DNA of 45,135 bases from Verrucomicrobiota bacterium (GTDB lineage: Bacteria > Verrucomicrobiota > Kiritimatiellia > JAHIZV01). Numbering within the stretch: the stretch's first letter is position 1; every line of letters starts with the position of its first letter. A model generated the notes under the pieces. That model was not told the origin of the DNA, did no database searches, and worked only from the letters and a program-made list of their open reading frames with translations. The stretch covers positions 1-45,135 of the forward strand of contig JAHIZV010000082.1 of NCBI GenBank assembly GCA_018814445.1. The letters are read 5' to 3'. The position numbers and the translations under genes are program-made. Positions 1 to 43,603 of this stretch are shown here, piece after piece.

Positions 1-154
1 CCCGGCTCAGCAAGCTTCGCCCTCCATGAAGAAGGTTGACGGCTCTGGAGGGCGAACTTTACGTGAGCCGTGCATGGCGGACGCCCCGGCTCAGCAAGCT
101 TCGCCCTCCATGAAAAAGGTTGACGGCTCTGGAGGGCGAACTTCACGTGAGCCG
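1..154. repeat. Two tandem REP-like hairpins left of the RAYT gene
   Basis: Two copies of one unit lie 84 bp apart (bases 1-29 equal 85-113). Each has a perfect 10-bp stem, ttcgccctcc / ggagggcgaa, at 16-25/47-56 and 100-109/131-140, with a 21-nt loop. Outer arms cggctca / tgagccg lie at 3-9/64-70 and 88-94/148-154. The first copy is cut by the window edge, so more copies may lie upstream. Such hairpins next to a RAYT gene are the classic arrangement in which the transposase acts on REP-type structures. Confidence 0.8.
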
Positions 155-8783: not shown

Positions 8784-8803
8784 TCTGCGAGTTTGTCGGG
8801 GAA

Positions 8804-8830
8804 GGGACGTAAAGGACCCAAGGGACCTAA
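8804..8830. repeat. 9-bp tandem repeat before the GT9 gene
   Basis: Three 9-bp units, gggacgtaa, aggacccaa and gggacctaa, end two bases before the GT9 start codon. The AGGGAC stretch may double as a weak ribosome-binding site. An inverted copy lies inside the gene at 9049-9075. Confidence 0.7.
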
Positions 8831-8831
8831 G

Positions 8832-9860
8832 ATGGACAAAGTTCAGGCAGGCGAAGCGAGGAGCCCGAGGATTCTCCTTGTGAAGCTCAGTTCCCTGGGC
8901 GATCTCTTCCATGCTCTCCCCCTGGTGCGCGTTCTCAAGCGGGAATTGGGCGCTCGTATCGACTGGGTCACGCAAGCTCCGTATGCCGATCTTGTCCGGT
9001 GTTTCGACGATGTCGACGATGTGATTGTCTTTCCCCGGAAATCTTTCCTTAGGTCGCTTAGGTCCTTCAGGTCCCGATTGAGACAGGAGGAATACGACCT
9101 GGTCCTGGATCTCCAGGGCTTGCTGAAAAGCGCGTTTGTTGCCGGCCTCGCAAGAAGCCGCCGCAAGTTAGGTCCGTCCTACTGCCGAGAGGGGTCTCAC
9201 ATCTTCTACGGAGAGATCGCCGGCGAACTTAACAAGGAACGGCATGCCGTCGAAGAGGGTCTTGATTTTGCCCGGCATCTGGACCTGTCGGTCGGAGAAC
9301 CGGAGTTCCCGATGTCTTTTCCTTCGCTCAATCTCAGCGAAGGCCGTCCTCGCATTGCCCTCATTCCCTGCTCCCGATGGGAAACGAAGAACTGGCCTGT
9401 TGCTCATTTCGTGGACGCCGGGAAGATGTTGCGGCGCGAATTGGGCGCCACGCTGTTTCTTTTCGGCGCGCCGGAGGACGGGGAAATCTGTCGCCAAATA
9501 GCCGCAGGATGCGGGGATGGGGTAGTGGACCAATGCGGAAAGACCTCTCTGATCGAGATGGGAAGTTGGCTGAGTGAAATGGATCTAGTGATTACCGTTG
9601 ACTCCGGTCCCATGCACATGGCCGCAGCACTGCAGAAGCCGGTGCTCGCTATATTCGGCCCAACTGATCCGGTCAGGACGGGACCTTTCGGCGACCGTTG
9701 TGAAGTACTTTACGTCGACTACCTGTCCTGCCGCCCCTGTTTCTCGCGATCCTGCCTCAGAGACGAGAGAGACGTCGCTTGTCTGAAGATGCTTTCTCCG
9801 GAGCGAGTAGCAGCTACCGCAGCCGGAATGCTGGAGATGCCGCAGACGCCGCCGAGTTGA
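8832..9860 (+). CDS. Glycosyltransferase family 9, heptosyltransferase-like
   Basis: Predicted 342 aa; transfers heptose or a related sugar during lipopolysaccharide core assembly on the cytoplasmic face. N-terminal Rossmann half: ILLVKLSSLGDLFHALPLV (residues about 13-31) and DLVLDLQGLLKSA. C-terminal half: SRWETKNWP, FGAPED and the nucleotide-sugar site DLVITVDSGPMHMAAAL, then IFGPTDP. ATG 8832 is chosen because the upstream TTG-started extension is encoded by a 9-bp repeat. Residues 73-82 (LRSLRSFRSR) are encoded by an inverted copy of that same repeat. They fall in the variable loop before the YDLVLDLQG strand, so they are probably tolerated. A Cys-rich CRPCFSRSC segment near the end is common in this family. 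Confidence 0.85.
   Translation: MDKVQAGEARSPRILLVKLSSLGDLFHALPLVRVLKRELGARIDWVTQAPYADLVRCFDDVDDVIVFPRKSFLRSLRSFRSRLRQEEYDLVLDLQGLLKSAFVAGLARSRRKLGPSYCREGSHIFYGEIAGELNKERHAVEEGLDFARHLDLSVGEPEFPMSFPSLNLSEGRPRIALIPCSRWETKNWPVAHFVDAGKMLRRELGATLFLFGAPEDGEICRQIAAGCGDGVVDQCGKTSLIEMGSWLSEMDLVITVDSGPMHMAAALQKPVLAIFGPTDPVRTGPFGDRCEVLYVDYLSCRPCFSRSCLRDERDVACLKMLSPERVAATAAGMLEMPQTPPS
9049..9075 (-). repeat. In-frame inverted 9-bp repeat inside the GT9 gene
   Basis: Units ttaggtcgc, ttaggtcct and tcaggtccc are the reverse complement of the gggacctaa-type units at 8804-8830. The period is a multiple of 3, so the frame stays open and yields an LRS/LRS/FRS-type peptide. Confidence 0.7.
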
Positions 9861-28347: not shown

Positions 28348-28439
28348 AACATCGAACATCGAACAACAAACATCGAACTTCGAATCGAAGAGCACCTGCA
28401 TTCGATGTTCAGCGTTCGATGTTCGGAGTTCGATGTTCC
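28348..28439. repeat. AACATCG foldback element, copy 1
   Basis: Left arm heptads: aacatcg, aacatcg, aacaaca, aacatcg, aacttcg, aatcgaa (28348-28389). After an 11-nt loop the right arm (28401-28439) is built of the complementary words cgatgtt, cagcgtt, cgatgtt, cggagtt, cgatgtt. It fills the space between the bioB stop and the next ribosome-binding site. Confidence 0.8.
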
Positions 28440-28852: not shown

Positions 28853-28944
28853 AACATCGAACTCTGAACAACCAACATCGAACGTCGAAGTCCGGAACTC
28901 TTCCATTCGATGTTCTGAGTTCGTTGTTTGATGTTCGATGTTCC
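28853..28944. repeat. AACATCG foldback element, copy 2
   Basis: Left heptads aacatcg, aactctg, aacaacc, aacatcg, aacgtcg, aagtccg (28853-28894) face a complementary right arm (28906-28944) ending gatgttcgatgttcc. It begins 3 nt after the hypothetical gene stop and ends beside the convergent nadA stop, so it may act as a two-way terminator. Confidence 0.8.
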
Positions 28945-32466: not shown

Positions 32467-33912
32467 ATGACAGAACAACAGGAACAGAATGAATACCGGG
32501 CTCAGAGGCTTGAGAATCTTGAGAAGCTGAAGGAGGCGGGTTACTCGCCTTTTGGTGCCGCCTTCGAGCGCACGGGTGACCTTGGTGCGATCCGTGCGGA
32601 GTTTGAAGAGGGGAAGACGGTCCGAATCGCCGGACGCCTTGTCGCGATCCGCGACATGGGGAAAAGCATCTTCGCGCACCTGCAGGACAGTTCAGGAAGA
32701 TTCCAGGTATATGCCCAGAAGAACGCTCTCGGAGATGAGGCGTTTGCCGCGTTCAAGCTGCTCGACCTCGGCGACACGATTGGCGTAGAAGGTGAGTTGT
32801 TTACCACCCGGACGGAAGAACCAACCGCCAAGGCGGCGAGCTGGACTCTACTGTCAAAGGCCCTGCTTCCTCTCCCCGAGAAGTGGCACGGGCTGCAGGA
32901 CGTGGACACGCGCTATCGCCAGCGCTACCTTGATCTCATTGCCAATCCGGAAGTGACCGGGCTTTTCCGCAAACGCACGGAGGCTGTCCGTGAGATTCGC
33001 GGGTATCTTGCCGATCGTGGATTTTACGAAGTCGAGACGCCGATGATTCAAGCGATGGCGGGCGGTGCGGCAGCCAATCCGTTCAAGACACACTACGATG
33101 CGCTCAGTAGCGACATGTTTCTGCGCATCGCGCCGGAGCTTTACCTCAAGCGACTGCTGGTCGGCGGTTTTGATAAGGTCTTCGAGCTGAACCGCAACTT
33201 CCGCAACGAAGGACTGAGCCGTTCACACAATCCTGAATTTACGATGCTGGAAATCTACCAGGCTTTCACCGACGTGCGCGGCATGATGGAACTCGTTCAA
33301 GGTCTGACTACGCACGTGTCCGAGAAGATCTTCGGCACATTGAAAGTCGGATCTGAGGAAATGCCGATAGATTTGATGCCGCCGTGGCGTGAGGTGACGT
33401 ACCATGATCTGATTGTTGAGGTGGCGGGAGACGACTGGTTCTCGCTGGATCTTGCGCTCGCGCAGGAGAGGGCTTCTTCTCTAGGTGTGGATTTCGATCC
33501 TGCATGGGACATGGTTCTGTTGACGCAGGAGATCTTTGAAAAGAAGATCGAGAAAACGCTGGTGAATCCGACTTTTGTAACGCGTCTGCCGGTCGCGTTG
33601 GTCCCGCTTGCCAAGGCGTGCATTGACGATCCATCGGTTGTCGATGTCTTCGAACTCATCATCGGCGGCCGGGAAATAGCTCCTGCCTACAGTGAGCTGA
33701 ATGATCCGCTGGAGCAACGGAAGCGTTTCGAGGAGCAAGCCGCGGGGGATGCAGAGAAGATCGATGAGGACTTCCTCGCGGCGCTGGAGCATGGAATGCC
33801 ACCGGCCGGCGGCATGGGCATCGGGATCGACCGCCTTATGATGGTCTTTACGGGTGCAGAAGCGATTCGGGATGTGATACTGTTTCCGCAGTTGAAACCG
33901 AGGGAGAGTTGA
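32467..33912 (+). CDS. lysS: Lysyl-tRNA synthetase, class II
   Basis: Predicted 481 aa. N-terminal OB anticodon-binding domain (about 50-140: VRIAGRLVAIRDMGKSIFAHLQDSSGRFQVY). Class II motifs: motif 1 around VREIRGYLADRGFYEVETPMI, motif 2 FELNRNFRNEGLSRSHNPEFTMLEIY, motif 3 GMGIGIDRLMMVFTG. The body is close in length to E. coli LysS (505 aa). No strong Shine-Dalgarno sequence; repeat DNA fills the region before the start. It lies downstream of tRNA-Leu and may be read from that promoter or one hidden in the repeat. Confidence 0.95.
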   Translation: MTEQQEQNEYRAQRLENLEKLKEAGYSPFGAAFERTGDLGAIRAEFEEGKTVRIAGRLVAIRDMGKSIFAHLQDSSGRFQVYAQKNALGDEAFAAFKLLDLGDTIGVEGELFTTRTEEPTAKAASWTLLSKALLPLPEKWHGLQDVDTRYRQRYLDLIANPEVTGLFRKRTEAVREIRGYLADRGFYEVETPMIQAMAGGAAANPFKTHYDALSSDMFLRIAPELYLKRLLVGGFDKVFELNRNFRNEGLSRSHNPEFTMLEIYQAFTDVRGMMELVQGLTTHVSEKIFGTLKVGSEEMPIDLMPPWREVTYHDLIVEVAGDDWFSLDLALAQERASSLGVDFDPAWDMVLLTQEIFEKKIEKTLVNPTFVTRLPVALVPLAKACIDDPSVVDVFELIIGGREIAPAYSELNDPLEQRKRFEEQAAGDAEKIDEDFLAALEHGMPPAGGMGIGIDRLMMVFTGAEAIRDVILFPQLKPRES

Positions 33913-33996
33913 ACATCGAACACCGAACATCGAACGCTGAACATCGAATCCCGTTCCAACTTCGATGTTGGATGTTTAATGTTCGATGTTCGATGT
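33912..33996. repeat. AACATCG foldback element, copy 3
   Basis: The first heptad shares its first base with the last base of the lysS stop. Left: aacatcg, aacaccg, aacatcg, aacgctg, aacatcg, aatcccg (33912-33953). Right arm 33961-33996 is complementary (gatgttgg, gatgttta, cgatgtt). It ends 10 nt before the lolC/E start. Confidence 0.8.
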
Positions 33997-36851: not shown

Positions 36852-36888
36852 TGATAGAGTCTGTGTGTGCGGAGGCATGGAAGTGAGC

Positions 36889-37054
36889 GAACATCGAACA
36901 CCCCGCTTCGCTCTGCGAGCTACGCAGGGCAAGCCGAACATCGAACACCCCGCTTCGCTCTGCGAGCTACGCAGGGCAAGCCGAACATCGAGTTCGGAGG
37001 TCGTCGATGTGTTCTATATCGTCCATCAACCATCAGCCATCAACCATTTCCCAT
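36889..37054. repeat. 47-bp tandem repeat with nested hairpin, then ATGGTTG heptamers
   Basis: Two identical 47-bp units (36889-36935 and 36936-36982) and the start of a third each contain gaacatcgaacacc followed by an imperfect hairpin (gcttcgctctgc / gcagggcaagc). They therefore combine an AACATCG heptamer stub with an inserted palindrome, later duplicated. Inverted ATGGTTG heptads (caaccat, cagccat, caaccat, ttcccat) occupy 37027-37054. Nothing else was found in the 222 bp before mcsA. Confidence 0.75.
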
Positions 37055-43475: not shown

Positions 43476-43603
43476 GAAGAGCCCGGAGCAAGGAGCGCGG
43501 AGGATGGATCGTCACACTCTATCCTCTGTCTCCTGACTTCTGACCTCTGTCTTCTAACATCTGATGTCTGGCTTCCTGCCGCCTTTATCCTGTATCCTTC
43601 TCT
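43476..43603. repeat. Long 7-bp-period array between GH31 and lpxL (two families)
   Basis: Immediately after the GH31 stop come purine-rich heptads gaagagc, ccggagc, aaggagc, gcggagg (43476-43503). From 43520 twelve consecutive pyrimidine-rich heptads follow, starting tatcctc, tgtctcc, tgacttc, tgacctc, tgtcttc, taacatc, tgatgtc, tggcttc and ending cttctct at 43603, 4 bp before the next ATG. This is the clearest example of the 7-bp phase in the window. Confidence 0.85.

Follow-up and report, generated by a model that had tools for sequence, protein, structure and literature searches.

Copies of a dispersed 9-bp tandem repeat beside and, inverted, within a glycosyltransferase family 9 gene of a Verrucomicrobiota bacterium

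The window examined was a 45,135-nucleotide stretch of DNA from a Verrucomicrobiota bacterium of the class Kiritimatiellia (assembly GCA_018814445.1, contig JAHIZV010000082.1). It contains a glycosyltransferase family 9 (GT9) gene with one short repeat array adjoining its start codon and another, inverted, inside its reading frame. The features of the locus, in window coordinates, are:

8802–8831, forward strand: upstream array of three 9-bp units, AAGGGACGT AAAGGACCC AAGGGACCT, then AAG, read directly from the sequence
8832–9860, forward strand: glycosyltransferase family 9 (heptosyltransferase-like) gene, 342 amino acids from ATG 8832
9048–9077, reverse strand: inverted coding arm, in family orientation TCGGGACCT GAAGGACCT AAGCGACCT AAG
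9045–9080, forward strand: alpha helix predicted by AlphaFold2 at GT9 residues 72–83, occupied by the coding arm

The protein is a family match to Pfam PF01075 (E 5.8e-47; 160.5 bits against a cut-off of 22). Searches with it returned records named Kiritimatiellae, Lentisphaerae and Verrucomicrobia, and homologues from the same class are 47–60% identical. The gap preceding the gene measures 48 bp. The upstream array adjoins the ATG at 8832, and an AAGGGA stretch 6–11 nt before that codon, within the array, could be a Shine-Dalgarno sequence. Residue numbering presumes a start at ATG 8832, with codon 73 at 9048–9050; the frame is also open from TTG 8793, and a start there would make the upstream array coding as well (GKGRKGPKGPKM). 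On the forward strand the coding arm reads CTT AGG TCG CTT AGG TCC TTC AGG TCC CGA, which forms GT9 codons 73–82 and encodes LRSLRSFRSR. Units before the ATG and an inverted copy encoding these residues were the starting observation of the original prediction, and both can be read directly from the DNA. An inverted-repeat search aligned 8804–8831 with 9048–9075, 28-nt arms that are complementary at 24 of 28 positions (86%) and have 216 nt between them. Among long genes taken from the window, the codons AGG and CTT account for 12.9% of arginines and 20.4% of leucines, respectively. Roughly 100 bp past the coding arm, the GT9 gene has a further single unit (CGGACCTAA, minus strand, one mismatch) at 9168–9176, and a scan at 18 bits also counts a second, weaker match in this gene.

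The arrays belong to a family of degenerate head-to-tail units, approximately AARNGACCN, found at many sites in the genome, an assembly of 250 contigs that totals 4.06 Mb and is 95% complete. The lone 9-mer, with one mismatch allowed, matched the window 7 times against 5.5 expected; the single unit is therefore not enriched there, and the non-random feature is the tandem array. Across the whole genome a pattern of two units, allowed at most three mismatches, gave 38 matches against 1 for the backwards pattern, and a looser version gave 56 against 4. A three-unit position matrix derived from 17 intergenic arrays was applied to 413 kb, comprising nine contigs picked partly for holding arrays, so that the density of matches is not representative of the genome. 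It returned 21 matches of at least 20 bits, and the reversed sequence returned none at 16 bits or more. The upstream GT9 array scored 39.6 bits with this matrix and E 6.7e-6 in a whole-genome model search. The coding arm scored 22.8 bits and E 7.2e-4; it is the lowest-scoring of the 21 matrix matches, yet well above the reversed-sequence control.

A sequence-only model built from 21 arms recovered 42 genomic matches at E≤10, of which 24 had E≤0.01. Our own classification of the 42 places 26 between genes and 14 within 12 coding frames, leaving 2 unclassified; the best 24 include 5 coding matches. The unclassified pair are those in C86 (14.9 bits) and C194 (14.8 bits); L299 has an open frame of 367 amino acids with a weak codon score, and L300 has none that convinces. 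The 21 aligned intergenic arms have three 9-bp units per site. Within the unit, positions 1, 2, 5, 6 and 7 are nearly invariant and position 3 is restricted to A or G, with more variation at 4, 8 and 9. A related two-unit pattern occurs sporadically across 240 genomes of the class, with 33 occurrences here, 16 in one other genome and at most 5 elsewhere. The 9-bp family is real and genome-wide. Our literature searches found no paper on an AARNGACCN family, a statement that reaches no further than those searches. Another genome of the class (G123; contigs C79, C84, C8 and C19) carries longer, purer related 9-bp arrays of AAGGGACCT and AAGGGACAT, some of them inverted.

That other coding copies exist, as the original prediction had supposed, was borne out by the genome search, which finds them in about a dozen genes and in several frames. 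Twelve were scored; eleven lie at 22.8–36.2 bits, and the twelfth, in a subtilase gene, scored 8.7 bits and was excluded from the count. The eleven are:

Abhydrolase, amino-terminal membrane segment: 36.2 bits
E2, lipoyl-domain linker: 35.0 bits
ABC-F, linker: 34.3 bits
UbiA-like, membrane helix: 31.6 bits
Alpha-amylase, carboxy-terminal domain: 31.6 bits
Lipoprotein-like, signal peptide: 31.1 bits
RmuC-like, amino terminus: 30.7 bits
ComEC-like, linker: 30.3 bits
Dinitrogenase-cofactor-domain protein: 27.9 bits
ThiS-like protein: 27.7 bits
GT9: 22.8 bits

The names GT9, amylase, E2, abhydrolase and cofactor-domain are backed by Pfam, and UbiA, ThiS, ABC-F, ComEC and RmuC were read from sequence. 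The start codons of the abhydrolase and RmuC genes are uncertain, so translation of their copies is uncertain too. The encoded peptide varies with the frame: VLL in membrane segments and signal peptides, RDL in ThiS and amylase, LRS in GT9, and KGP, GTK and KDQ in the linkers of ComEC, ABC-F and E2, respectively. Of 27 units in coding copies, the three positions of GAC agree in 27, 27 and 25, and 26 have A or G at position 3; position 9 is free. This per-position pattern matches that of the intergenic copies, a likeness partly built in by selecting the coding copies with the intergenic profile.

The codons were compared with synonymous-codon shuffles (40 rounds) of the 292 called genes, 357 kb in all. 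Three genes contained a 27-bp match of at least 22 bits, against a shuffle mean of 0.025. These results support membership of the GT9 coding copy in the repeat family, rather than chance. A chance resemblance would mean that the helix FLRSLRSFRSRL evolved normally, like FFRSFRSF in a relative, and that its codons resemble the repeat by accident; the GT9 copy is indeed the weakest of those accepted, and other genomes have similar peptides at the same columns. However, its score exceeds every reversed-sequence control, the native score is reached by only 0.09% of random codon choices for the GT9 peptide, and the copy lies inverted within 220 bp of a strong array to which 24 of 28 bases are complementary. 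Chance is consequently a very improbable explanation.

Repeats within genes are usually explained by insertion. The original prediction likewise proposed that the repeat had entered GT9 by insertion into a variable loop, an event that would resemble those of the Rickettsia palindromic elements. A length of 27 bp would keep the frame, and the segment is poorly conserved among homologues. However, the interval from R69 to Y88 spans 20 residues in the window protein and 49 homologues alike, which makes 50 of the 59 distinct sequences compared (those below an E-value of 1e-40 having been left out); one homologue has 19 residues, and eight distant ones (30–36% identity) have 23–33. Nor is the segment a loop in the AlphaFold2 model (24 sequences; mean pLDDT 92.8), which places residues 72–83 in an alpha helix whose block means are 93–97. 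Insertion into a variable loop was therefore rejected at the resolution of homologues no more than 60% identical, and is scarcely credible as an account of the copy. The closest homologues found were 60% identical, which leaves room for an old insertion with a compensating deletion.

The original prediction held that the same residues in homologues from repeat-free genomes would count against it, and such a peptide was found in part. One homologue reads FFRSFRSFCRAL at the columns of residues 73–82 and others read F[LF]RSF, in each case with unrelated codons and with no array at the GT9 locus. As a homologue carries FFRSFRSFCRAL, the GT9 peptide appears normal for this helix, and it is the codons that are unusual.

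Length was also compared at copies in other genes. UbiA (against 11 homologues) and ThiS (against 8) show no gap at the copy, and ABC-F nearly equals a 71% identical homologue in length, its linker varying among the remaining ones. ComEC has three extra residues at the copy relative to 8 of 11 homologues, and four or more relative to the other three. Four of the five proteins compared are thus no longer for carrying the copy; for alpha-amylase the homologues had diverged too far to judge length at the copy. Compared with their homologues, the copies in GT9, UbiA and ThiS seem to have replaced sequence in place, with length unchanged.

It had further been argued that a period divisible by three allows spread into genes. 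In the 413 kb, three of the 21 arms in the 9-bp family are coding, as is one of 10 in a 7-bp family, numbers too few for a difference to be seen, and length-neutral copies make the argument unneeded. The 7-bp family consists of GAACATC units with a fixed GAAC core, in inverted arrays directly 3' of stop codons (window 28348–28438, 28853–28943, 33911–33996 and 36888–36991), with 10 matches of at least 18 bits in the 413 kb and none in the reversed sequence. An 84-bp tandem repeat (1.8 copies at 97%) occupies window positions 1–154, at the contig end.

Replacement in place might result from selfish or neutral spread, in which short repeat tracts are copied to new places via template switching or ectopic conversion, structured genes keeping only length-neutral, in-frame outcomes and linkers tolerating small gains. 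The presence of copies in many unrelated genes and frames is consistent with such spread, as are the gain of one unit (3 residues) by the linker of ComEC relative to 11 homologues, the length-neutral copies elsewhere, and the fact that bacteria commonly carry degenerate, dispersed short repeats, as far as the accessible parts of the literature show. However, variation is limited to unit positions 3, 4, 8 and 9, which simple copy decay would not produce. Moreover, when the GT9 arm was compared with 32 other arms, one was closer to it than its own neighbor and several tied, so that no local template was seen. Hairpin template-switch copying from the upstream array is unsupported for the same reason. 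Selfish spread is possible, if doubtful, as the origin of the copies.

The arrangement of the arms was also considered. Of the 21 arms in 413 kb, 12 form six opposite-strand pairs with gaps of 5–570 bp, the rest being single at the threshold; no same-strand pairs occur among them. Weaker partners were found beside three more arrays. Intergenic sites are enriched between convergent genes (8 of 18, compared with 35 among 283 gene pairs; p 7.5e-4), a count that rests on our own codon-score gene calls and includes one site that hangs on a weakly called gene. In one case (L137 1589–2211; contig C42 41988–42610), two inverted 9-bp arrays directly flank a gene weakly similar to PF05635, the 23S rRNA intervening-sequence protein family (26.3 bits, sub-threshold against 33.8). 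This gene adjoins an apparent tRNA gene, and one of the arrays provides the stop codon of a RecQ gene.

Inverted arms could act as RNA, pairing in the mRNA, with intergenic ones forming terminator-like hairpins. At GT9 the paired arms would enclose a loop of 216 nt and mask the start region, lowering translation until ribosomes opened codons 73–82; pairing over the ribosome-binding site had also been suggested by the original prediction. Folding of 8784–9110 does predict about 23 arm–arm pairs, with pairing of 8820–8834 at 0.80, compared with 0.58 for synonymous shuffles, of which 6 in 200 were as high. The enrichment between convergent genes and the several close pairs with loops of 5–34 nt are likewise in keeping with an RNA element. 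However, the folded region as a whole gains no stability over shuffles (z −0.04), local folding alone leaves the start about half open (pairing 0.46), and a partner is missing from most coding copies and from many intergenic ones. Nor do partners covary in the eight pairs compared, where their mean identity of 0.704 equals the 0.704 of unrelated arms (permutation p 0.36). As partners are no more alike than unrelated arms, the pairs fit two independent protein sites rather than an RNA stem. An RNA element is therefore an unlikely explanation of the family. The arm pairing predicted over the GT9 start may be a by-product; translation of GT9 may be affected, but the family as a whole does not look selected for such an effect.

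Several published repeat systems offer comparisons, and the 9-bp family probably joins a loose kind of paired or dispersed short tandem repeats, of which those of Geobacter metallireducens are the closest published. In the accessible sections of that report (PMC2700814), about 50 multicopy elements are described, with three to five tandem repeats of 7–9 nt, in sites that form opposite-strand pairs of variable spacing and are guessed to bind IHF/HU-type proteins. Class 2 consists of three TCTCCGTS[Y] repeats of 8–9 nt, and a four-repeat heptamer family (GGGACCG / GGACCGG) occupies 49 places between and within genes; the elements occur in one genome and are absent from a relative (PMC2700814). 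The present family shares the three tandem short repeats per site; as for opposite-strand pairing, six variably spaced pairs account for 12 of the 21 arms in 413 kb, and the others are single at the threshold used. It differs from what those sections show in its unit, AARNGACCN against TCTCCGTS[Y], GTTGCTYN, MTYCTGA and GGACCGG, with only a GGACC core common to the last, and in that pairs are a minority here. Intragenic copies were tested here for length and codons, unlike in the accessible Geobacter text, and the sections available of PMC2700814 and PMC4692102 report no length-neutrality test of such copies. A TCTGACT array at window 43525–43575 has a rotation, CTTCTGA, that fits the Geobacter class-3 motif MTYCTGA as given in the same sections (PMC2700814), possibly by chance.

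The GGGAATC heptamers of Xanthomonas (7–11% intragenic) and the GGGGA(C/T)T heptamers of Nostoc/Anabaena (68% intergenic in Anabaena) are, in the available text of PMC4692102, similarly degenerate dispersed tandem repeats, mostly intergenic with an intragenic minority. They are described there as 7-bp G-rich units studied for G-quadruplexes, in longer arrays mainly between aligned genes, whereas the units here are 9 bp, have GG/GGG runs only and frequently form inverted pairs. Neisserial DNA uptake sequences also combine a short motif, often in inverted pairs, with genome-wide dispersal, and these pairs act as terminators, according to the portions available of PMC2397512; they are single 10–12 bp motifs in hundreds to thousands, in contrast to the tens of three-unit arrays here. 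Assignment to that class was rejected, as single units show no excess in the window (7 against 5.5) and the genome has 42 model matches. The Rickettsia palindromic elements likewise place repeat DNA in frame within unrelated genes; as described in the accessible part of PMC10969869, they are insertions of about 150 bp that lengthen the protein, whereas the copies here are 27 bp, GT9, UbiA and ThiS are not lengthened, and ComEC alone gained three residues. The cyanobacterial HIP1 is another short motif, spread by nucleotide substitutions according to the title of Robinson et al. 1997 (PMC4390886). It is given there as an 8-bp palindrome in very high number, unlike the non-palindromic, low-number tandem units described here.

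On balance, a paired DNA site is favored, with selfish copying a close second. The GT9 pair would be opposite-strand copies of a dispersed three-unit DNA site, written in place and read by a protein, a reading held with slightly less than even confidence. On this paired-site reading, 8802–8831 and 9048–9077 would be two copies, on opposite strands, of a site with three degenerate AARNGACCN units, acting at the DNA level as paired half-sites for a putative repeat-recognizing DNA-binding protein of nucleoid or regulatory function. The half-site idea is modelled on the proposal published for the paired tandem-repeat sites of G. metallireducens. The GT9 copy would straddle the gene start, with one half-site beside the ATG and the other 216 bp inside. 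Within genes, copies would persist where the encoded peptide suits the protein, such as in an amphipathic helix (GT9, ThiS), a membrane segment or signal peptide, or a linker. The enrichment between convergent genes also fits a terminator role and so counts against the protein-site reading.

More generally, a DNA-level drive, either selection for a repeat-recognizing protein or repeat copying, may rewrite 27-bp stretches of genes by substitution, a proposal made with some reserve. Such a drive would take whatever frame the protein bears: VLL in membrane segments, RDL and LRS in amphipathic helices, and KGP, GTK and KDQ in linkers. The observation itself stands and is stronger than first claimed; it is the insertion mechanism that fails. 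If in-place rewriting is correct, overwriting at constant length shapes proteins in ways that alignments of insertions and deletions miss, and a codon signature, the profile score relative to synonymous shuffles, would detect it. The paired-array design now seems to occur in a second phylum, which makes the identity of what reads such sites testable.
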